A DNA stretch of 64,000 nucleotides from Streptomyces sp. NBC_00483. GTDB lineage: Bacteria > Actinomycetota > Actinomycetes > Streptomycetales > Streptomycetaceae. Location of the stretch: contig NZ_CP107880.1 of assembly GCF_036013745.1 (NCBI RefSeq), positions 6,014,001-6,078,000 of the forward strand, written 5' to 3'. This document shows positions 11,783 through 23,280 of this stretch, in pieces; the first letter of the stretch is position 1; every line of letters begins with the position of its first letter. The translations under genes and the position numbers were made by a program. The notes under the pieces were generated by a model. That model saw nothing but the letters and a program-made list of their open reading frames with translations, did no database searches and was not told the origin of the DNA.

Positions 11783-13381
11783 TCAGAGGGTCCGGCGCAC
11801 GGAGCGGCCCGCGAGGACGTCCGTGCGCTTGCCCTCCTCGATCACGAACTGCCCGTCGACGAGGACGTGCGGGATACCGACCGGCAGCGTGCGCGGCGCA
11901 TCGAAGGTGGAGCCCGCCGCGACCGTCTCCGGGTCGAACAGGACCAGGTCGGCGCGGTAGCCCTCGCGGACCAGGCCGCGGTCCGGCAGACGCAGGCGGG
12001 CGGCCGGGCGCGAGGTGAGGTGTGCGACCGTCTCCTCCAGGGACATGACGCCGAGGTCGCGGGCGTAGTGGCCCAGGTAGTGCGGGAACGTGCCGTACGC
12101 GCGCGGGTGCGGCTTGTAGCCCTGGAGGATGCCGTCGCTGCCGCCCGTGTGCACGGAGTGCTGCATGATCGCCCGGACGTTGTCCTCGTGACCGACGTGC
12201 TGGAGGATCGACGAGCCGAGGTTGTCGTTGATCAGCAGGCGGCGGGCGGTGACCCACGGGGCCTCGCCGCGCTCGGCGGCGGCCTGCGCGACGGTCTTGC
12301 CGACGCACGAGGCCAGGCCCGGGTCGGAGACGCCCGAGATCTCGATCTTGTCCCACTCGATCGGCACGCCGTGGCAGCCGTCCGCGCCGATCACCTCGAC
12401 GTGGTGCCGGATGCGCTCGGCCGTCTCGTCGTCCTTGAGGCGGGCGAGGGTCGCGTCGGGGCCGCCCTCGTTGGCCCAACTCGGCAGCATCGCCACGAGA
12501 GTTGTGGCGCCCGGGGTGTACGGGTACGTGTCCAGGCTGATGTCGGCGCCGTCCGCGATGGCCTCGTCGAGAAGGGCCAGGAGGTCGACTCCCTTGCCCT
12601 TGTTCACGCCGAAGTTCATGGTGGCGTGCGCGAGGTGCAGGGAGCAGCCCGCGGTGCGGGTCAGCTCCACCATCTCCTGGTACGCGTCGAGCGCGCCGGC
12701 GCCGTAACTGCGGTGGTGCGGGCAGTAGTAGCCGTCGTACGAGGCCACCACCCGGCACAGTTCGGTGAGTTCGGCGTCCTTCGCGTACATGCCGGGGGTG
12801 TAGGTCAGTCCGGAGGACATTCCTACGGCGCCCTGCTCCATGCCCTCGGCGACGAGCCGCTTCATGTGGTCGAGTTCGGCCGGGGTCGCGTCCCTGTCGT
12901 CCCAGCCGACCGCGTACATGCGGACCGTGCCCTGCGGGATGAGGTACGCGGCGTTCACCGCGATGCCCTGGCGGTCGATGCGGTCCAGGTACTCGCCGAC
13001 CGTGCGCCAGTCGAAGTCGATGTCCGAGCCGTCGCCGTTCCAGCCGGTGATCGCCTGGCGGACCTGGGCGAGGGTGCGGTCGTCGACGGGGGCGTAGGAC
13101 AGGCCGTCCTGGCCGAGGACTTCGAGGGTGACGCCCTGGGCGGCCTTCGCGCTGTGGTCCGGGTCGCGGAGCACGGCGAGGTCGCTGTGGGCGTGCATGT
13201 CGATGAAGCCGGGGGAGAGGGCGAGGCCGTCGGCCTCGACCGTGCGGGTGGCGGTGGGGCGGGGGCCTGCCCCCTCCGGGGTGATCTCGGAGATCCGGCC
13301 GTCGTTGACGGTCACGTCGGCTCGGTACGAGGCGCTGCCGCTGCCGTCGATGACGCGGGCGTCGCGGATGACCAGGTCCAT
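11783..13381 (-). CDS. N-acyl-D-amino-acid deacylase (D-aminoacylase), amidohydrolase superfamily
   Basis: A 532-residue amidohydrolase that removes an acyl group from N-acyl-D-amino acids. The metal motif SPGFIDMHAHSDLA (about 56-70), later histidines (CPHHRSYG, LHLAHAT) and the C-terminal GYRADLVLFDPETV block identify the subfamily. The usual GNCG cysteine is replaced by GQDG, with a nearby Glu (TLEVLG) as possible metal ligand. From memory, the S. coelicolor relative Sco4986 prefers hydrophobic N-acyl-D-amino acids in vitro. It points the same way as the deaminase gene upstream of it, from which it is separated by 209 bases with a dispersed repeat; the two may belong to one pathway. Confidence 0.9.
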   Translation of the reverse strand: MDLVIRDARVIDGSGSASYRADVTVNDGRISEITPEGAGPRPTATRTVEADGLALSPGFIDMHAHSDLAVLRDPDHSAKAAQGVTLEVLGQDGLSYAPVDDRTLAQVRQAITGWNGDGSDIDFDWRTVGEYLDRIDRQGIAVNAAYLIPQGTVRMYAVGWDDRDATPAELDHMKRLVAEGMEQGAVGMSSGLTYTPGMYAKDAELTELCRVVASYDGYYCPHHRSYGAGALDAYQEMVELTRTAGCSLHLAHATMNFGVNKGKGVDLLALLDEAIADGADISLDTYPYTPGATTLVAMLPSWANEGGPDATLARLKDDETAERIRHHVEVIGADGCHGVPIEWDKIEISGVSDPGLASCVGKTVAQAAAERGEAPWVTARRLLINDNLGSSILQHVGHEDNVRAIMQHSVHTGGSDGILQGYKPHPRAYGTFPHYLGHYARDLGVMSLEETVAHLTSRPAARLRLPDRGLVREGYRADLVLFDPETVAAGSTFDAPRTLPVGIPHVLVDGQFVIEEGKRTDVLAGRSVRRTL

Positions 13382-13483
13382 GGGGGGTGCCTCTCTGGGG
13401 CGGGTGGTGCGGTGCGGGGTGGTCGGTGCGGGTGGGTGGGCGCCTGCGGCGGGCGGAATTCCCCTCCCCGCCCCTTCCCGAAA

Positions 13484-13533
13484 CCGGGGCTCCGCCCCGG
13501 ACCCCGTTTGTCCTCAAACGCCGGACGGGCTGG
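13484..13533 (-). repeat. Dispersed GC-rich repeat, copy A
   Basis: Read on the minus strand it runs TCCAGCCC..CGGCGTTTGAGGA..CGGGGTCCGGGGCGGAGCCCCG. The same element recurs at 44022 and 50026, with a sister form at 24048 and 25750. The second half contains an internal hairpin (CGGGGCTCCGCCCCG type). It lies in the gap between the deacylase and deaminase genes. Confidence 0.8.
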
Positions 13534-13590
13534 AAATACGGGGTGGAGCCCCGAGGCGTGGGCGGCGGCCGGGTGGGCCGTATCGGCTGC

Positions 13591-14901
13591 CTAGAAGTAC
13601 GTGCGGATGTAGTCGACGACCGTGCCGTCGGACTCCACCAGGGGAATCAGCTGCCACTTGTCGAACGACGTGCACGGGTGCGAGAGGCCCATGCCGAGCC
13701 AGTCGCCCACCTCCACGTCCGCCCCCGGCTCCGTACGCACCCAGCCGTGCTGGTCGGAGAGGCCCGTCACCGCGACGCCCGCGGCCTCACGCACCTCGCC
13801 CGTCCGCGCGTCCCGGACGACCTGCGCCTCGGGCAGGTCGATGTCGTACGCGGCGTCCCGCTTGCCGGCGTTGGTGAACGCCTGGCCGTCGTTGGGGCGG
13901 GAGACGAACTGCGCCCACAGCCGGAACGCCGGCTCCAGCGCACCCTCCTCCGGGACCCGGTTGAACGGGGTCAGGTGCCGGTAGTGGCCGTCGTCGTGCG
14001 AGACGTACGCGCCGGAGCGGAGCAACTTGAGGACGGGGACGGTCAGTTCGGGGATTTCCGCGAAGACGTCCGCCACCGCGTCGAACCATGCCGAGCCGCC
14101 CGCGCTCACCACGATCTCGTCGAGGCCCGCGAAGCGCTCCGCCTTGTCGAACTCCGCCGCGAGCGCGACGAGTCGGCGCAGCCAGGCGCGCACCCGCTCG
14201 CCGTCGGCGTCCGGCACCTCGCCCTCGTAGCCCGCGACTCCGACCAGGCGAAGGGCCGAAGCGTCGGCCACCGCGTCCGCGATCGCCGCGCAGTCCGCCT
14301 CGGTGCGGGCTCCGGTGCGCGCGCCGTCGCCCGCGCCCAGCTCCACGACCACGTCGACCGGTCGGCCCGCTCCGGCCTCCGCCAGCGCCGCCTGCATCAG
14401 TTCCACGCCGCGCACGGAGTCGACGTAGCAGATGAAGCGGAAGGACGGGTTCGCGTCCAGCTCCTTCGAGAGCCAGCGCAGCGCTGCCGCGTCGACCAGC
14501 TCGTTCGCCAGGAAGATGCGGTCGATGCCGAACTCCCGCGCCACACGCACCTGGTGGGGCACGGCGAGGGTGATGCCCCACGCGCCGTGCTCGAGCTGCC
14601 GGTGGAAGAGCTGCGGGGCCATCGACGTCTTGCCGTGCGGGGCGAAGGCGAGGCCGTGGCGGGCGGAGTAGGTCTCCATGAGCGCGAGGTTGTGCTCGAG
14701 GCGCTCGGCGGAGAGGGCGAGGACGGGCGTGGTGAAGCCGTCCGTGAAGAGGTTCAGGCGGCGGGCTGCCAGCTCGCCGATCGTCGCGCCGTCGGCCTCG
14801 GGAGGCAGTCCCTTGAAGCGGAAGTCCACCCGCTCCGTCGCCAGCTCCTCAAGACGAGCGATACGGCGCTCGACGGCATTGTCGGCGTTCTGGGCGGTCA
14901 C
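13591..14901 (-). CDS. D-threonine aldolase/D-serine dehydratase-like PLP enzyme (amino acid deaminase)
   Basis: A 436-residue fold-type III PLP enzyme (alanine racemase N-terminal barrel plus DSD1-like C-terminal domain). The PLP lysine is K91 in FAPHGKTSMAPQ. The metal pair of the D-serine dehydratase/D-threonine aldolase group appears as SHPCTSFDKW near the C-terminus. Such enzymes split or dehydrate D-beta-hydroxy amino acids, giving ammonia and a keto acid. It is divergent from a KDG-type kinase, IclR, RidA and GntP unit across a 120-base region with a perfect palindrome. D-glucosaminate or D-serine/D-threonine are plausible substrates; the sequence does not decide. Confidence 0.88.
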   Translation of the reverse strand: MTAQNADNAVERRIARLEELATERVDFRFKGLPPEADGATIGELAARRLNLFTDGFTTPVLALSAERLEHNLALMETYSARHGLAFAPHGKTSMAPQLFHRQLEHGAWGITLAVPHQVRVAREFGIDRIFLANELVDAAALRWLSKELDANPSFRFICYVDSVRGVELMQAALAEAGAGRPVDVVVELGAGDGARTGARTEADCAAIADAVADASALRLVGVAGYEGEVPDADGERVRAWLRRLVALAAEFDKAERFAGLDEIVVSAGGSAWFDAVADVFAEIPELTVPVLKLLRSGAYVSHDDGHYRHLTPFNRVPEEGALEPAFRLWAQFVSRPNDGQAFTNAGKRDAAYDIDLPEAQVVRDARTGEVREAAGVAVTGLSDQHGWVRTEPGADVEVGDWLGMGLSHPCTSFDKWQLIPLVESDGTVVDYIRTYF

Positions 14902-14921
14902 GGCGCCTCCTCCAGGCAGCC

Positions 14922-14940
14922 CGTTGCACTATTTGCAACG
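14922..14940. promoter_or_regulatory. Palindromic operator, probably for the IclR protein
   Basis: CGTTGCA and TGCAACG flank CTATT: two perfect 7-base arms in the divergent promoter region, 21 bases upstream of the deaminase start and 95 bases upstream of the kinase start. Size and placement suit an IclR-family dimer site controlling both directions. The link to the IclR gene at 16090 is inferred. Confidence 0.6.
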
Positions 14941-15034
14941 GTCATTGCGTATGTCGCTTCATGCTGTCTAACATCCGAGCCAACGTCGGGTCAACGAAGC
15001 CCGAAGTCCCCTGCCGCGAGGAGTGCGACCCACC

Positions 15035-16093
15035 GTGACCGCCACCGGACCCGCAGTACCGACCAGCGCCAACGATGTAGTCGCGCTCGGCGAGTCCATG
15101 GTCACGTTCCGGCCCACCGTGCCGGGGCGGCTCGCCGACGTGCCCTCGTTCGATCGCGGGATCGGCGGCGCCGAGTCCAACGTGGCGTGCGTGCTCGCCG
15201 CCGCCGGGCACCGGGCCGTGTGGGTCAGCCGGGTCGGCGCCGACGGGTTCGGCGACCACCTCGTGGAGGCCATCGGCGCGTACGGCGTCGACACCTCCGC
15301 CGTACGCCGCGATCTGCACCGGCCCACCGGCATCTACTTCCGCACCGCGGGCGACCGGGCCACCGCCGCCCACGAGGTCGCCTACTACCGCGCCGGGTCC
15401 GCCGCCTCCGCGATGTCCACCGTCAACCTGGACCTCGACGCGCTGCGCTCCGGCCGGATCCTGCACCTGTCCGGGATCACGGCCGCGCTGTCCGCCGGCT
15501 GCCTCGACCTGCTGCGCGAGCTGACCGCTCCGCGCGCGGGCCGCCCCCTCGTCTCCTTCGACGTCAACTACCGGCCCGGCCTGTGGTCCGGCTCCGCCGA
15601 GGGCCCCGACGTACTCCTGGAGCTCGCGCGCGGCGCCGACATCGTGTTCGTCGGCGACGACGAGGCCGAGGACGCCTGGGGCATCACCGGCGGACCCGAC
15701 GCGATCCGCGATGCGCTGCCCGAGCCCGCGCTGCTCGTCGTCAAGCGGGGCGCCGACGGCGCGATCGCGTACGACGCCGACGGACGCCACGAGGAACCCT
15801 CCCCGCGCGTCGACGTCGTCGCCGCCGTCGGCGCGGGCGATGCCTTCGCCGCCGGATTCCTCTCCGCCACGCTGCGCGAACTGCCCGTCGCCGAACGCCT
15901 TCGGCACGGCCACCTCTGGGCCGCCGTCGCCCTCACCGAGCCCGGCGACCTCGCCGCGCCCCCGAGCCGCGCCCGGGCGGACCGCCTGGTCGGCCTCGAC
16001 GCCGCGCAGTGGGGGACACTGCACCTCGGCCCCGGTTGGGCAGCAGCCGACGCAGCCGACAGCGGGGCCGCCGAGGAGGTACGTACGCCATGA
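15035..16093 (+). CDS. PfkB family carbohydrate kinase, 2-keto-3-deoxygluconate kinase-like
   Basis: A 352-residue ribokinase-fold kinase. The N-terminal block VALGESMVTFRP with GIGGAESNVACVLAAAG and YYRAGSAASAM are typical of 2-dehydro-3-deoxygluconokinase (KdgK); the C-terminal AAVGAGDAFAAGFL contains the catalytic Asp and anion hole. The reaction would be KDG plus ATP to KDPG. The GTG at 15035 is preferred to the in-frame GTG at 15023, which sits too close to the GAGGAG ribosome site. It overlaps the IclR gene by 4 bases (ATGA), so the two are translationally coupled. Confidence 0.88.
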   Translation: MTATGPAVPTSANDVVALGESMVTFRPTVPGRLADVPSFDRGIGGAESNVACVLAAAGHRAVWVSRVGADGFGDHLVEAIGAYGVDTSAVRRDLHRPTGIYFRTAGDRATAAHEVAYYRAGSAASAMSTVNLDLDALRSGRILHLSGITAALSAGCLDLLRELTAPRAGRPLVSFDVNYRPGLWSGSAEGPDVLLELARGADIVFVGDDEAEDAWGITGGPDAIRDALPEPALLVVKRGADGAIAYDADGRHEEPSPRVDVVAAVGAGDAFAAGFLSATLRELPVAERLRHGHLWAAVALTEPGDLAAPPSRARADRLVGLDAAQWGTLHLGPGWAAADAADSGAAEEVRTP

Positions 16094-16839
16094 GCCAGAC
16101 CGTCGACCGCGCGCTCAGCATCCTGCCGCTGCTCGCCGAGGGACCCGCCGACCTGGGCCAGGTCGCCGACCGCCTCGACGTGCACAAGTCCACGGCCATG
16201 CGCCTGCTGCGCACCCTCCACGAGCACGGCCTGGTCTACCGCCAGTCCGACCAGCGCTACCGGCTCGGCGCCCGCCTCTTCGCGCTCGCCCAGGAAGCCG
16301 TCGAGAACCTCGACGTCCGCGAGATCGCCCACCCCCACCTCGTCGAACTCAACGAGAAGGTCGGGCACACCATCCACCTCGCCGTGTACGCGGAGAACGA
16401 GGTCCTCTACATCGACAAGGTCGAGAGCCGCTACCCGGTGCGCATGTACTCGCGCGTCGGCAAGCCGGTCGCCATCACCGTGGCCGCCGTCGCCAAGCTG
16501 CTGCTCGCCGACCTGTCCGAGTCCGAGCGCCGCGCCGTCGCGGAGAAGCTCGACTACCCCATGTACACGTCCCGTTCCACCCCCAACTCCGCGGCTTTCC
16601 TGCGGGAGTTGGAGAAGGTGCGCGAACAGGGCTGGGCCACCGACCTCGGTGGCCACGAGGAGTCCATCAACTGCGTCGGCGCCCCCATCCGCGGCGCGGA
16701 CGGCCGGGTCGTCGCCGCCATGTCGGTCTCCGCGCCGAATGTCGTCGTCACCGCCGAGGAACTCCTCACGCTGCTCCCGCTGGTGCGCCGCACGGCGGAA
16801 GCCATCAGCCGGGACTACTCCGGGACCCCTCCGAAGTAA
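16090..16839 (+). CDS. IclR family transcriptional regulator
   Basis: A 249-residue regulator with an N-terminal winged helix (ADRLDVHKSTAMRLLRTLHEHGLV, about 25-50) and an IclR effector domain with the motif GWATDLGGHEESINCVGAPI. The GGAGG ribosome site is within the end of the upstream kinase gene, and the start overlaps the kinase stop. As a local regulator it probably controls the divergent deaminase and kinase units through the palindrome at 14922-14940. IclR proteins of this sort (for example KdgR) sense small organic acids such as KDG, which fits the kinase next to it. Confidence 0.93.
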   Translation: MSQTVDRALSILPLLAEGPADLGQVADRLDVHKSTAMRLLRTLHEHGLVYRQSDQRYRLGARLFALAQEAVENLDVREIAHPHLVELNEKVGHTIHLAVYAENEVLYIDKVESRYPVRMYSRVGKPVAITVAAVAKLLLADLSESERRAVAEKLDYPMYTSRSTPNSAAFLRELEKVREQGWATDLGGHEESINCVGAPIRGADGRVVAAMSVSAPNVVVTAEELLTLLPLVRRTAEAISRDYSGTPPK

Positions 16840-16893
16840 GCCCCCAAGTAACACACCCCCCAAGTAACACCCCTCAAAGAAGGACCAGTTCAC

Positions 16894-17304
16894 ATGTCTG
16901 AGAAGACCGCGCTCACGCCCGCCACCCACACGACCCCGCCGGCGAAGTTCTCGCACGGCGTCAAGAAGGGCAACATCCTTCAGGTCGCCGGCCAGGTCGG
17001 CTTCCTGCCGGCCGAGGAGGGCAAGGCCCCGACCCCCGCGGGCCCGACCCTCAAGGAGCAGACCCTCCAGACGTTCGCCAACGTCAAGGCGATCCTCGAA
17101 GAGGGCGGCGCGAGCTGGGACGACGTCATGATGATGCGCGTCTACCTGACGGACGTCGACCACTTCGCCGAGATGAACGCCATCTACAACGAGTACTTCG
17201 AGGAGCAGGGCCTCAAGGCCCCGGCCTCCGCCCGTACGACCGTCTACGTCGGTCTGCCCAAGGGCCTGCTCATCGAGATCGACGCGCTCGCCGTCCTGAG
17301 CTGA
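16894..17304 (+). CDS. RidA/YjgF-family protein (enamine/imine deaminase-like)
   Basis: A 136-residue RidA-family protein. The family pattern shows as ILQVAGQVGF, QTLQTFANVKAILEEGGASWDDVMMMRVYLTD and a C-terminal SARTTVYVGLPKGLLIEIDALAV, with the substrate arginine in the SARTTV segment. RidA proteins hydrolyse reactive 2-aminoacrylate-type enamines released by PLP dehydratases. That suits the nearby D-serine dehydratase-like enzyme. The ribosome site GAAGGA lies about 9 bases upstream. It follows the IclR gene by 54 bases containing short CCCCAAGTAACAC direct repeats. Confidence 0.92.
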   Translation: MSEKTALTPATHTTPPAKFSHGVKKGNILQVAGQVGFLPAEEGKAPTPAGPTLKEQTLQTFANVKAILEEGGASWDDVMMMRVYLTDVDHFAEMNAIYNEYFEEQGLKAPASARTTVYVGLPKGLLIEIDALAVLS

Positions 17305-17358
17305 GCCCCCTGAGCCGGGCCTGCCGGGCTCGCGCTCCCGCTCGTTCGCACGTCGTCA

Positions 17359-17390
17359 CGGAGCGGCGCCCCTGTGGGTGCGCCGCTCCG
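17359..17390 (+). terminator. Hairpin between ridA-like and gntP-like genes
   Basis: An 11-base perfect stem (17359-17369 with 17380-17390) with a 10-base loop lies in the 151-base gap. No T-run follows, so it may attenuate transcription or protect the upstream message. Confidence 0.5.
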
Positions 17391-17455
17391 CGATCCCCCC
17401 TGTCTGGAAACACTGAAAACGCCCCGCGCCCCCCCATGTACTTACGAGGTCAACG

Positions 17456-18937
17456 ATGTCCCCGTACGCCCCCCTCGCGTCCGCCGCCGCGGACCAGCCC
17501 GAGCACACCGGTGGTCTGCTCCTCCTGATACCCGGCACGGCCGGCCTGCTGACCGTTGCCGTCCTCGGCATCGTGCTGCTGCTCTTCCTGATCATCAAGG
17601 CCAGGCTGCAGCCCTTCGTGGCCCTCCTGACGGTGTCCATCGCCGTCGGCCTCGCGGCCGGCCTCTCCGTCACCGAACTCTTCGGCACCGTCCAGAAGTC
17701 CGACGTCACGTCCGTCATCGAGGACGGCATGGGCGGCACCCTCGGACATATCGCGATCATCATCGGCCTGGGCACCATGCTCGGCGCGATCCTCGAAGTC
17801 TCGGGCGGCGCCGAAGTGCTGGCGTCCCGCCTGATCCACCTCTTCGGTGAGAAGCGCGCCCCCGTCGCGATGGGCCTCACCGGCCTCATCTTCGGCATCC
17901 CGGTCTTCTTCGACGTCGGCATCTTCGTGCTCGCGCCGATCGTCTACGCGGCCGCCAAGCGCGGCGGCAAGTCGATCCTGCTGTACTGCCTGCCGCTGCT
18001 CGCAGGCCTGTCGATGACCCACGCGTTCCTGCCCCCGCACCCGGGGCCCGTCGCCGCTGCCGGCCTGCTCCACGTCGACCTCGGCTGGGTCATCCTCATG
18101 GGCATCGTCTGCGGCATCCCGGCCGTGCTCGCCGCGTGGGCCTGGGCCGCCTGGATCGGCAAGAAGATCTTCGTGCCGGTGCCGCAGGACATGGTCGAGG
18201 CCGCCGACGAGGCGAAGGCCGCGCTCGCCGATGAGCAGCGCAAGGACGGCATCACGCCCCGCGAGGACCCGGTTCCGCTCGGCATCGTCTTCACGATCAT
18301 CGCCATCCCGCTGGTGCTGATCCTCGCCGCCACCTTCTCCTCGATCGCCATGGACCCGTCCACGGCCCGCTCGGTCATCGAGTTCTTCGGCAGCCCGTTC
18401 GTGGCGCTCACCCTCGCGCTGTTCGCCGCGTACTACCTGCTCGGCCTGCGCCGCGGCTGGTCCCGCAAGTCCCTGGAGACGGTGTCCACCGCGTCCCTGA
18501 AGCCGGTCGCCAACATCCTGCTCGTCGTCGGCGCCGGCGGCGTCTTCGGCGCGGTCCTTCAGGCCAGCGGCATCGCGCAGGCGCTGTCCGACACGTTCAG
18601 CAGCATCGGTCTGCCGATCATGGTCCTGGCGTACCTGATCTCGCTGGTGCTGCGCGTCGCGCAGGGTTCGGCGACGGTCGCCATCGTCACCACGGCCGGC
18701 ATCGTGGGCCCGCTGCTCCAGGCCGGCGACTACTCGCAGCCGTACACGGCCCTCGTCATCATGGCGATCTCGGCGGGCTCCATCTTCGCCTCGCACGTCA
18801 ACGACGGCGGCTTCTGGATGGTCTCCAAGTACTTCGGGATCTCCGAGCGGGACACCCTGCGCTCGTGGACGGTCCTGGAGTCGGTCCTCTCGATCGCCGG
18901 GTTCGTGGTGGCCCTGTTGATCAGCTTCTTCGTCTAG
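17456..18937 (+). CDS. GntP family permease (gluconate/D-serine type)
   Basis: A 493-residue inner-membrane proton symporter with about 12-14 hydrophobic helices. GntP family landmarks include GLGTMLGAILEVSGGAEVLA, FGIPVFFDVGIFVLAPI, SMTHAFLPPHPGPVAAA, and the C-terminal RVAQGSATVAIVTTAG with SHVNDGGFWMVSKYF. Members carry gluconate, 2-keto sugar acids or D-serine (DsdX). Its place after the kinase, IclR and RidA genes suggests that it imports the substrate of this pathway. It begins about 150 bases after the RidA gene and ends at a strong terminator. Confidence 0.92.
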   Translation: MSPYAPLASAAADQPEHTGGLLLLIPGTAGLLTVAVLGIVLLLFLIIKARLQPFVALLTVSIAVGLAAGLSVTELFGTVQKSDVTSVIEDGMGGTLGHIAIIIGLGTMLGAILEVSGGAEVLASRLIHLFGEKRAPVAMGLTGLIFGIPVFFDVGIFVLAPIVYAAAKRGGKSILLYCLPLLAGLSMTHAFLPPHPGPVAAAGLLHVDLGWVILMGIVCGIPAVLAAWAWAAWIGKKIFVPVPQDMVEAADEAKAALADEQRKDGITPREDPVPLGIVFTIIAIPLVLILAATFSSIAMDPSTARSVIEFFGSPFVALTLALFAAYYLLGLRRGWSRKSLETVSTASLKPVANILLVVGAGGVFGAVLQASGIAQALSDTFSSIGLPIMVLAYLISLVLRVAQGSATVAIVTTAGIVGPLLQAGDYSQPYTALVIMAISAGSIFASHVNDGGFWMVSKYFGISERDTLRSWTVLESVLSIAGFVVALLISFFV

Positions 18938-21037: not shown

Positions 21038-22057
21038 TCACATGGCGTCGACGTGCGGACCCACGGTCGAGGACCACGCGTTGCCGGAGGTCGCGTCCCA
21101 GTTGGTGGACCAGGTCATCGCGCCGCGCAGGCCCGGGTAGGTCTTCGAGGGCTTGAACGAACCGCAGTTGGTGCCCTTGGTAAGGCAGTCGAGGGCGTCG
21201 TTCACGACCGAAGGGGCCACGTAGCCGCTGCCCGCCGCGCTCGACGAGGCCGGTGTGCCGATGCCGACCTGCGAGGGGTCGAGCCCGCCCTCGAGCTGGA
21301 TGCAGGCGAGCGCCGTCAGGAAGTCCACCGAACCCTGGCTGTACACCTTGCCGTCGCAGCCCAGCATCGAACCGCTGTTGTAGTACTGCATGTTGACGAC
21401 GGTGAGGATGTCCTTGACCGCGAGCGCCGTCTTGAAGTACTCGGCCGAGGTCGACTGCATGTCGATGGTCTGCGGCGCCATGGTGAGCACGAACCCGCTG
21501 CCCGCCTTGGCGGCCAGCGACTTCAACGCCTGTGACATGTAGGTGGAGTTGAGCCCGTTCTCCAGGTCGATGTCGACCCCGTCGAACCCGTACTCCTGCA
21601 TGAGCGCGTACACGGAGTCGGCGAAGTTGGTCGCGGAGGCCGCGTCGCTGACCTGGATGGTGCCCTTCTCGCCGCCGATCGAGATGACCACGGACTTCCC
21701 GGCCGCCTGCTTGGCCTTGATGTCGGCCTTGAAGGCGTCGTCCGTGTAGCCGCCGAGGCCCGCCGAGTCGAGCGTGAAGTCGACGGCGCCGGGCGTCGTG
21801 GTGGCGTCGGCGAAGGCGACGGCAACGATGTCGTACGCGTCCGGGACGTCGGCGAGTTTCTGCACGGTCGCGCCGTTGTTGAAGTTCTGCCAGTAGCCGG
21901 TGACGGCGTGCGCCGGAACGGCGGCCGTGGAGCTTTCGGTCGTACTGGCCGCATTTGCCGTACTTGTCGTGGCGAGACCGCCCACGGCGAGCGCCGCCGC
22001 CGTGAACGCGCCAAGAAGTACGCCGAGCCGGGACCGTCTGCGATAGGAATGCGCCAT
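21038..22057 (-). CDS. Secreted chitinase, glycoside hydrolase family 18
   Basis: A 339-residue exported enzyme that hydrolyses chitin. The N-terminus has a run of arginines, a hydrophobic core and an ANAA cleavage site (about residue 36); the RRRSRLG pattern could be Tat-type. The GH18 active site DGVDIDLE spans about 159-166 with E166 as proton donor, and QYYN and a late MTWSTNWD block match the barrel. No carbohydrate-binding domain is present, so it is a single-domain form. The promoter contains a near-consensus DasR site, which implies induction by chitin breakdown products. Confidence 0.95.
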   Translation of the reverse strand: MAHSYRRRSRLGVLLGAFTAAALAVGGLATTSTANAASTTESSTAAVPAHAVTGYWQNFNNGATVQKLADVPDAYDIVAVAFADATTTPGAVDFTLDSAGLGGYTDDAFKADIKAKQAAGKSVVISIGGEKGTIQVSDAASATNFADSVYALMQEYGFDGVDIDLENGLNSTYMSQALKSLAAKAGSGFVLTMAPQTIDMQSTSAEYFKTALAVKDILTVVNMQYYNSGSMLGCDGKVYSQGSVDFLTALACIQLEGGLDPSQVGIGTPASSSAAGSGYVAPSVVNDALDCLTKGTNCGSFKPSKTYPGLRGAMTWSTNWDATSGNAWSSTVGPHVDAM

Positions 22058-22143
22058 TTCTTCCTCCAGGTGGGGGGAGGTCTCCCGGCACCGAAGTGGG
22101 GGAGAAGTGAGGGGAGTTGAGGAAGCAGCTGCTGGCCGTACAA

Positions 22144-22170
22144 ACTGGTCCAGACCATTGGACTTGTCAA
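22144..22170 (-). promoter_or_regulatory. DasR-type operator and promoter of the chitinase gene
   Basis: ACTGGTCCAGACCATT at 22144-22159 closely matches the known dre consensus (ACTGGTCTAGACCACT type) of DasR, the GlcNAc-responsive GntR regulator of Streptomyces. On the minus strand TTGACA (22165-22170) lies just upstream and could be the -35 element, so the operator overlaps the core promoter. Confidence 0.8.
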
Positions 22171-22338
22171 GGGTTGTCACCGGCGCTTCTTCGCCAACCC
22201 GCCCCCGACTCACCCCCATCGCCCCGTGAACAGTGCGAAGTGGGGTGTTGCGGGGCGGCTGCGTGGATATGGTGCTCAGGCAGCGGCACCGCGAGGTGCT
22301 GCTGGAGGGACGCAGAGCGACGACCGGGGGGTTCACGC

Positions 22339-23280
22339 GTGCCGACCGCCATAGCCGTGACCGACCCCGACCTGGTCCTCGCCTCGCCGGACCGGCACAC
22401 ACCGACCGCCACCGTGCTGCCCGTGGGCGAACCGCAGCAGAAGTATCCGCTCGACCGCGCCCTGACCGACGTCCACACACTGATCGAACAGCACGGGTAC
22501 GTGATCGTGCTCTGCCCGGAATCGGCGCCGGACGCGACCGTGCACCGGCTGCATTCGATCCGTTCCGTGCTGGAAACCGACCGGATCGCGATCCTGCGCC
22601 CCGCGCTCCCGCCGCTCGGGCTCGCCGTACTGGCGCTGCAATTGCGCCAGTTGTCGATCTGCGACTTCAGCCCGGGCGTGCTCGCGTCGTCGGCGCGCCT
22701 GCTCGCGCATTACGTCTACGCGGGCGCGGTCGTCGGATCGGTGGCGAAACTGGACCGGGTCCCGGTCTCCCTGAAGGCGCACGCGAAGTCCTGGTCCCCG
22801 AACGCCCAGTTCGCGGTGGTCGCCTCGCCGCAACCCCAACTCCTGCGCCTCACGGGCTCGGAGACACCGACGGGCCCCGCTTTCGGGACCCGCATGGTCT
22901 ACGCCGTCGGCCAGAGCACGCCGGACTGGCTCACCGGCGTCCTCGCGCCCGCCTGGCGGGTGCAGGGGGTGACGCGCACGCGGCTGCCGGCCGAGTCACC
23001 GCGATGGTGGGCGACAGGCAAGCAGGCCAGCCCCGGCCGCATCGTCGAATTCGCGGCGGCGATCCCCGACATCTCGGTCCTCTACCAACTCGTCTCCTCG
23101 GTCCGCCGCGAACAGTGCCACTGGTGCGGCCTCGAACTCATCGGTGACCGCTGCGGGTTCTGCTCCGCGCCGCTGGCGGGCGAGGCGCCACCCGAGGGCA
23201 CGGGCGCGCCGACGCGCTCGGCACTCACGCCTGCGGCGGGCTCGACCCGAACAGCACTCCCACGTCCGACCCACTCCTGA
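22339..23280 (+). CDS. Tad locus hypothetical protein with C-terminal zinc ribbon
   Basis: A 313-residue cytoplasmic protein opening the Tad pilus operon. No signal peptide or membrane helix is seen. The mid-part is a mixed alpha/beta domain I cannot assign. Near the C-terminus, CHWCGLELIGDRCGFC is a CxxC-x8-CxxC zinc ribbon, followed by a Pro/Thr-rich tail. The GTG at 22339 follows a G-rich ribosome site. The next gene (CpaB-like) begins 26 bases later, so they share an operon. A role in assembly or regulation of the pilus is inferred from context only. Confidence 0.75.
   Translation: MPTAIAVTDPDLVLASPDRHTPTATVLPVGEPQQKYPLDRALTDVHTLIEQHGYVIVLCPESAPDATVHRLHSIRSVLETDRIAILRPALPPLGLAVLALQLRQLSICDFSPGVLASSARLLAHYVYAGAVVGSVAKLDRVPVSLKAHAKSWSPNAQFAVVASPQPQLLRLTGSETPTGPAFGTRMVYAVGQSTPDWLTGVLAPAWRVQGVTRTRLPAESPRWWATGKQASPGRIVEFAAAIPDISVLYQLVSSVRREQCHWCGLELIGDRCGFCSAPLAGEAPPEGTGAPTRSALTPAAGSTRTALPRPTHS

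Follow-up and report, generated by a model that had tools for sequence, protein, structure and literature searches.

A candidate N-acetyl-D-glucosaminate degradation cluster in Streptomyces and other Actinomycetota

Which compound is degraded by a locus that joins a D-aminoacylase-like hydrolase, a D-serine-dehydratase-like deaminase and a sugar-acid kinase around one putative operator? The question is raised by six genes of Streptomyces sp. NBC_00483 that lie at 11783-18937 of a 64,000-nucleotide stretch of its 10.2 Mb, single-contig genome (hereafter the window; contig NZ_CP107880.1, positions 6,014,001 to 6,078,000). Most likely, with a probability of about 0.75, the cluster is an actinobacterial variant of the pathway for N-acetyl-D-glucosaminate (GlcNAc1A), one that works like the ong pathway of the marine bacterium Pseudoalteromonas but is not ong. 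GlcNAc1A is the C1-oxidised end of chitin cut by lytic polysaccharide monooxygenases (LPMOs) (Jiang et al. 2022, PMC9537276). In the ong pathway, the D-aminoacylase-like OngB deacetylates GlcNAc1A, the fold-type III pyridoxal phosphate (PLP) enzyme OngC deaminates the product to 2-keto-3-deoxygluconate (KDG), and KdgK phosphorylates KDG; all three activities were proved in vitro, and deletion of ongB, ongC, kdgK or the RidA gene ongD abolished growth on GlcNAc1A (PMC9537276).

Gene content and predicted route

The first-pass annotation of this DNA described six genes on two strands that flank a single palindromic operator. Open reading frames (ORFs), Pfam and NCBIfam matches and the repeat itself bear this out, and all six genes are intact ORFs in the places assigned to them:

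11783-13381, minus strand: D-aminoacylase-group amidohydrolase, a predicted GlcNAc1A deacetylase (532 aa; ORF and PF07969)
13591-14901, minus strand: fold-type III PLP deaminase, predicted D-glucosaminate dehydratase/deaminase yielding KDG and NH3 (436 aa; PF01168 and PF14031)
14921-14941, no strand: perfect inverted repeat, predicted IclR operator, between the divergent deaminase and kinase genes
15023-16093, plus strand: PfkB-family sugar kinase, predicted KDG kinase (PF00294; start codon uncertain)
16090-16839, plus strand: IclR-family regulator, putative local repressor whose ligand would be a pathway intermediate (PF09339 and PF01614)
16894-17304, plus strand: RidA-family enamine/imine hydrolase, predicted deaminase helper (PF01042)
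17456-18937, plus strand: GntP-family permease, predicted aldonate (GlcNAc1A) importer (PF02447; TIGR00791 over its cut-off)

The kinase and IclR genes overlap by 4 bases. A scan against PHROGs was uninformative.

From this gene content we infer the reactions, their substrate and the ligand of the regulator. GntP would import GlcNAc1A, and the hydrolase would remove acetate to give D-glucosaminate. The PLP- and metal-dependent deaminase would then eliminate water and proceed via an enamine, whose hydrolysis RidA would aid, to KDG and ammonia, and the PfkB kinase would convert KDG to 2-keto-3-deoxy-6-phosphogluconate (KDPG). A KDPG aldolase, located outside the cluster in Streptomyces and inside it in many relatives, would release pyruvate and glyceraldehyde-3-phosphate; the source genome holds three aldolases of the KDPG/2-keto-4-hydroxyglutarate (KHG) family. 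IclR is expected to repress both arms from the one palindrome. The cluster thus probably runs from GlcNAc1A to KDPG, and the succession foreseen, from the DNA letters alone, in the first-pass annotation, namely import, deacylation, dehydration with deamination, and phosphorylation to KDPG with RidA alongside, finds support in having the order of the proved Pseudoalteromonas route (PMC9537276).

The similarities of the individual proteins are consistent with these roles. The best solved relative of the deaminase is the D-serine deaminase 3gwq (277 bits over residues 41-436). The protein carries the PLP-lysine motif PHGKT and an SHPC motif, and a His-Cys metal pair is characteristic of the zinc D-serine dehydratase type (PMC4401734); the window enzyme therefore has both the PLP lysine and the His-Cys pair of fold-type III D-serine dehydratases. 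A role as an aldolase was rejected, since the His-Cys pair fits a dehydratase and not the His-Asp pair of D-threonine aldolase. A beta-hydroxyaspartate-cycle locus was likewise considered and rejected: the deaminase matched no NCBIfam model other than BhcC, BhcR ranked second for the regulator, both scores are far below the cut-offs, and neither the kinase nor the aldolase fits that cycle. A literature search on D-glucosaminate dehydratase found nothing. For the kinase, the best NCBIfam models describe bifunctional kinases of KDG and 2-keto-3-deoxygalactonate (KDGal), with a score of 171 bits against a cut-off of 400, so that the curated cut-off of the KDG-kinase equivalogs is not reached. Its best solved relative is the KDG kinase 1v19, with which it has in common the stretches YYR..GSA and DVNYR, which we take to be KDG-binding. 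The best NCBIfam model for the regulator is KdgR, below cut-off.

Conservation in Streptomyces and beyond

A match to the deaminase was found in 100 of 101 Streptomyces genomes (99 of 100 genus-mates), and Streptomyces was the only organism named among the 120 matches listed in a protein search. In three genomes (G005, G022 and G082) the match falls in two pieces, owing to a frameshift or an assembly error. We viewed 97 Streptomyces loci, comprising 96 from the 100 genomes with a match and one from a further genome. Thirty of these, including the best-scoring ones and the window's own locus, were seen with short flanks; the other 67 were seen with flanks of about 8 kb, a few of them clipped by contig ends and seven chosen mainly for divergence. 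The kinase lies beside the deaminase in 79 of the 97 loci, the window's own included, and adjoins it in all 30 with short flanks. Among the 67 with wide flanks, the hydrolase is present in 66, IclR and RidA in 59 each, the kinase in 49 and GntP in 32, and an aldolase lies inside the cluster in none. Within these stretches, GntP is confined to loci with the kinase (32/49 versus 0/18 without it; Fisher 5e-7, shared ancestry ignored). The first-pass annotation had named as a refuting outcome that kinase and permease fail to co-occur with the deaminase in other genomes, and neither these Streptomyces counts, for kinase and permease alike, nor those from other genera (kinase beside the deaminase in 72 of 80 loci, described below) give that outcome.

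The palindrome is also conserved. In the window it reads CCGTTGCA-ctatt-TGCAACGG, with perfect arms of 8+8 bp and a 5 bp centre, and the pattern GTTGCA-N5-TGCAAC occurs once in the entire genome, while a reversed control pattern occurs nowhere in it. Upstream of the deaminase, 38 of the 49 kinase-bearing loci have the exact core TTGCA-N5-TGCAA and 48 have it when a single mismatch is allowed; among 2450 letter-shuffled copies of the same 49 stretches, the corresponding numbers are 1 and 10. Of the 18 kinase-less loci, 2 have the exact core. The arms are kept and the centre varies, one of its five positions being mostly A, as would be expected of an operator, and we predict that this palindrome is the site of IclR, conserved in position.

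Some 2.1 kb past the GntP gene, at 21038-22480 on the minus strand, lies a neighbouring gene resembling glycoside hydrolase family 18 (GH18) chitinases (PF00704; ORF start uncertain). A homologue occurs in 39 of the 67 wide-flank stretches, kinase-less loci among them, and this gene is accordingly counted as context and not as proof.

Outside Streptomyces, additional genes join the cluster. We examined the best 80 of at least 559 matches to an Arthrobacter hydrolase, with genes called by tblastn; the genera include Arthrobacter, Rhodococcus, Nocardia, Tsukamurella, Amycolatopsis, Kribbella, Nocardioides and Kitasatospora, among others, with seven loci labelled Streptomyces and one Sporosarcina. 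The deaminase is present in all 80, RidA in 76, IclR in 74, the kinase in 72, GntP in 64 and a KDPG/KHG aldolase in 49, whereas neither a sodium:solute symporter (SSS) nor an RpiR regulator was found in any. On a Tsukamurella plasmid, for example, RidA, IclR and kinase genes are followed by a divergent deaminase-hydrolase-aldolase-GntP run. In a separate set of 33 non-Streptomyces loci, hand-picked from the stronger deaminase matches, the aldolase accompanies the cluster in 9 of 12 loci with the kinase and in 0 of 21 without it; Pfam confirmed it in seven of those nine as well as in the Tsukamurella and Arthrobacter plasmid loci. Six loci fetched later comprise one with both kinase and aldolase and five with neither. 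The in-cluster aldolase suggests that the product of the kinase is a KDPG-like phosphate.

A few loci stand apart. Two labelled Streptomyces (L200 and L216) have an in-cluster aldolase, unlike the 67 wide-flank loci of that genus, which may reflect mislabelling or transfer. Sporosarcina beigongshangi (Bacillota) has a copy of the cluster whose hydrolase is 69% identical to the Arthrobacter one and sits with Micrococcaceae rows in the tree, reflecting either horizontal transfer or contamination. On plasmids of Pantoea soli and Pseudomonas silvicola, relatives of the deaminase lie with RidA, IclR and amino-acid ATP-binding cassette (ABC) transporter genes; no kinase was seen there, and these loci look like D-amino acid use.

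Further evidence for a carbohydrate substrate comes from glycoside hydrolase family 20 (GH20) hexosaminidases, which occur in 14 of the 80 loci (Amycolatopsis 11/13, Arthrobacter 3/8). The Amycolatopsis regifaucium locus continues, past GntP and in the same orientation, with genes for a PF10282 lactonase, an ABC solute-binding protein, permeases and a GH20 enzyme. A lactonase, a solute-binding protein and GH20 are likewise present in all ten remaining GH20-bearing Amycolatopsis loci. In Arthrobacter psychrochitiniphilus, IclR, GH20 and ABC importer genes lie past GntP, on the opposite strand; in one of the three GH20-bearing Arthrobacter genomes (5.1 Mb), the sole GH20 match adjoins the cluster. 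The two GH20 genes of the source genome, at 4.07 and 5.91 Mb, are outside the window, so its own cluster contains none.

In Microbacterium, hydrolase and GH20 are fused in one protein of about 1100 aa, with both domains recognized by Pfam in a 1103 aa example. Both domains are present in all 120 listed of 872 homologues, and the organisms named among the 120 are Microbacterium or an unassigned actinomycete; the search was restricted to long proteins of similar size and thus speaks to the recurrence of the fusion, not to the frequency of unfused forms. The window subfamily's motifs GQDG and HATxN are likewise found in all 120, and GGDE, which we take to be the GH20 acid pair, in 119. The hydrolase half is 51% identical to the window hydrolase over 532 aligned positions, and the two fall in one 36-row group of the hydrolase tree (100/98). 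Beside the fusion are the deaminase and RidA, then ROK proteins and a gene of the glucosamine-6-phosphate isomerase family. A kinase of the window type was not found next to it; the three Microbacterium genomes searched do have, at other places, a gene with 47-49% identity to the window kinase, which in one copy contains an internal stop. Plain chitobiase leaves chitobionic acid, a disaccharide of N-acetylglucosamine (GlcNAc) and GlcNAc1A, undigested (PMC10067821), so coupling a hexosaminidase to a deacetylase would have a purpose: the fusion would cleave GlcNAc-GlcNAc1A and then remove the acetyl group from its product. If so, it provides a ready-made natural test enzyme.

The in-cluster aldolase, the Amycolatopsis lactonase-ABC-GH20 run and the Microbacterium fusion are new here, and they strengthen the amino-sugar-acid reading put forward in the first-pass annotation. 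A different sugar with the same chemistry also has to be considered, namely N-acetyl-D-galactosaminate or another C2-D 2-acylamido aldonate, degraded through KDGal to its 6-phosphate (KDPGal). The best-scoring kinase models are bifunctional for KDG and KDGal, the family PF01081 covers both KDPG and KHG aldolases and presumably KDPGal aldolases as well, and GH20 hexosaminidases can release either GlcNAc or N-acetylgalactosamine. GlcNAc1A from chitin, however, has a proved pathway of this shape (PMC9537276), and S. coelicolor possesses chitin-oxidising LPMOs (PMC10067821), for which reasons we consider the galacto form quite unlikely.

Points against the pathway and competing explanations

Several observations weigh against the GlcNAc1A pathway and must be set beside the evidence above. 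To begin with the substrate, the gluco and galacto forms are not separable by sequence, and OngC deaminates D-Ser and D-Thr in addition to D-glucosaminate (PMC9537276), so the deaminase alone cannot decide it. Two of the substrate anchors are missing from the hydrolase, which has neither Ser292, a signature residue of OngB, nor Lys254, Ser291 and the metal ligand Cys97, the last three of which were reported as strictly conserved in OngB and D-aminoacylases when the OngB structures were solved and specificity residues named (Wang et al. 2025, PMC12017989). The kinase is missing from 18 of the 67 wide-flank Streptomyces loci, and no close kinase was found elsewhere in those 18 genomes: the best matches to the window kinase are 31-40% identical in nine of them and absent at 1e-20 in the other nine. 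Eleven of these 18 loci (L058, L063, L108 and L111-L118), all without GntP as well, keep the hydrolase, deaminase, IclR and RidA. The link between kinase and aldolase is weak in the 80-locus set (47/72 versus 2/8, p = 0.05; both kinase-less loci with an aldolase sit at contig ends), and our Fisher tests ignore shared ancestry. The Arthrobacter GH20/ABC set, being on the opposite strand with its own IclR, could form a unit of its own. Hydrophobic N-acetyl-D-amino acids are reportedly preferred by a related hydrolase of S. coelicolor; a literature search with the Streptomyces locus tags SCO4985-4989 found no paper.

One rival explanation is D-amino acid salvage, in which the hydrolase would act on N-acyl-D-amino acids and the deaminase on D-Ser and D-Thr, a DsdX-like GntP would import, RidA would clear enamines, and the kinase would be accidental. 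Family-level similarity to D-aminoacylase and D-serine deaminase, the absence of kinase and GntP from those 18 loci, the D-Ser and D-Thr activity of OngC itself (PMC9537276), and the preference of the related S. coelicolor hydrolase all speak for it. The first-pass annotation had objected that simple salvage leaves the kinase unexplained, and this objection is upheld: salvage accounts neither for the kinase and its fixed place (79/97 and 72/80 loci) nor for the in-cluster KDPG aldolase, the GH20 fusion or the lactonase-importer-GH20 run. One kinase-less row is nested among kinase-bearing ones in the hydrolase tree, 98/86 with the window, and three are so nested in the deaminase tree with lower support, making it the simpler reading that kinase-less Streptomyces arose by kinase loss.

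By OngB numbering, the window hydrolase keeps His68, His70, Tyr194, His222, His252, Tyr285, Asp368 and Arg379. At the Cys97 metal-ligand site it has Asp (in the GQDG motif), with the two His ligands and the catalytic Asp retained, and so departs from the Cys/His/His metal site of subtype V D-aminoacylases. Further substitutions are Lys254 to Thr, Glu226 to Tyr, Ala193 to Thr, Ala256 to Asn, Ser291 to Ala and Ser292 to Thr. The Gln298 site is alignment-dependent, as an extra stretch follows it, and is not Gln under either alignment; with Thr at 292 and a place in a separate clade, the protein does not show the Ser292/Gln298 signature of the OngB clade. The pocket of the D-aminoacylase AfDam is hydrophobic through F191 and M254, equivalent to sites 193 and 256 of OngB (PMC12017989). 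These residues are Thr and Asn in the window hydrolase, which implies a more polar pocket and counts against salvage. The overall pattern indicates an enzyme that is neither OngB nor a standard D-aminoacylase. Salvage is, in our judgement, improbable.

A third explanation shares its enzymes with the GlcNAc1A pathway and differs in the source: glucosaminate would come from enzymatic oxidation of glucosamine or GlcNAc, or from other polymers, and LPMOs would be irrelevant. Streptomyces are classic chitin degraders, and the family LPMO_10 is found in 100 of 101 of their genomes (three matches in the source genome); being near-universal, it is uninformative there. Elsewhere, LPMOs are not enriched with the kinase-bearing cluster (4/12 versus 6/21). 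Of 12 more genomes that carry the cluster or one related to it, five have an LPMO (Amycolatopsis 3/3, Microbacterium 2/3) and seven have none (four Arthrobacter, Rhodococcus, Kribbella and one Microbacterium), the latter including all three Arthrobacter with a nearby GH20. LPMO co-occurrence outside Streptomyces was therefore dropped as support, and the absence of LPMOs from many cluster genomes favours a source other than chitin oxidation. Scavengers, however, need no LPMO of their own, LPMO_10 pervades Streptomyces, all three searched Amycolatopsis with the lactonase-GH20 run have LPMOs, and both the fusion with GH20 and the GH20 and ABC genes nearby suggest oligosaccharides. We regard a source unconnected with chitin oxidation as doubtful.

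Taking oxidised chitin as the source, we lean towards a broader proposal in which Actinomycetota own a separately assembled pathway for oxidised chitin ends. It would rest on a distinct subfamily of carbohydrate de-N-acetylases whose metal site is of the Asp type, joined in Microbacterium to GH20 in a single bifunctional protein. If this is true, most sampled Streptomyces would have in this pathway the missing outlet for what their chitin LPMOs release, soil actinobacteria would join the users of oxidised chitin, so far Gammaproteobacteria and one Achromobacter, and the hydrolases of this subfamily that currently go by the name D-aminoacylase would need a new one.

Comparison with known systems

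The ong cluster was reported from Gammaproteobacteria and one Achromobacter, in a genome screen that required at least four genes, each of >30% identity, and the main text does not mention Streptomyces (PMC9537276). At 29-35% identity to OngB-type enzymes, the window hydrolase is at the limit of that screen. Within open-licence PubMed Central, no paper was found on an actinobacterial version of the pathway or on the GH20 fusion, and the papers found contain no description of how Streptomyces handles oxidised chain ends.

The two systems have in common a D-aminoacylase-fold deacetylase, a fold-type III PLP deaminase, a PfkB KDG-type kinase and RidA, standing together. With relatives of the window cluster, ong also shares GH20, lactonase and KDPG aldolase genes in or beside some clusters: in Vibrio, the lactonase of the ong cluster adjoins the GH20 gene, and in Paraglaciecola the operon that includes a GH20 gene also encodes a deaminase, a D-aminoacylase, RidA, RpiR and a sodium:solute symporter (PMC7014002). 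They differ in regulation and transport, ong having a MurR/RpiR regulator (OngR) and an SSS symporter (OngIT) where the window has IclR and GntP. They differ also in lineage. Four OngC-type rows form their own group (100/99) without the window deaminase, which is outside the OngC clade, and the hydrolase has Asp for the metal Cys and no Ser292. Descent of the window cluster from ong was accordingly rejected on both trees and residues.

Two plasmid-borne loci touch on the ong side of this comparison. The megaplasmid of Cupriavidus metallidurans CH34 carries an OngB-signature hydrolase, an OngC-clade deaminase, RpiR, RidA, a PfkB kinase and a KDPG-aldolase-like gene (by tblastn only), with GntP as the permease in place of the SSS symporter of Pseudoalteromonas; GntP is thus also seen beside OngB/OngC-type genes. 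In a 37 kb plasmid record of Klebsiella pneumoniae, an OngC-clade deaminase and, in divergent orientation to it, an OngB-signature hydrolase lie next to genes for 4-hydroxyphenylacetate, with no kinase in the stretch.

With the D-aminoacylase and N-acyl-D-glutamate deacylase structures (PDB 1m7j and 3gip), the window hydrolase shares the fold family, the catalytic Asp, the His ligands and the equivalents of Arg379 and Tyr285; it differs in having Asp for the metal Cys, Thr for Lys254, polar pocket sites and about 25 extra residues past the loop-2 site. The deaminase shares the PLP-lysine motif and His-Cys metal pair of the D-serine dehydratase 3gwq, but stands with a sugar-acid kinase and, in relatives, an aldolase, and its predicted substrate is a six-carbon amino-sugar acid. 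Finally, the same genome has a second sugar-acid cluster (G000:C1:4480500-4494000) with a major facilitator superfamily (MFS) transporter, a PfkB kinase, IclR, a KDPG/KHG aldolase and an enolase-superfamily (MR_MLE) gene. Its kinase and IclR are 47% and 39% identical to those of the window, whereas its MR_MLE gene takes the place of the window's deacetylase and deaminase, and its transporter is of the MFS.

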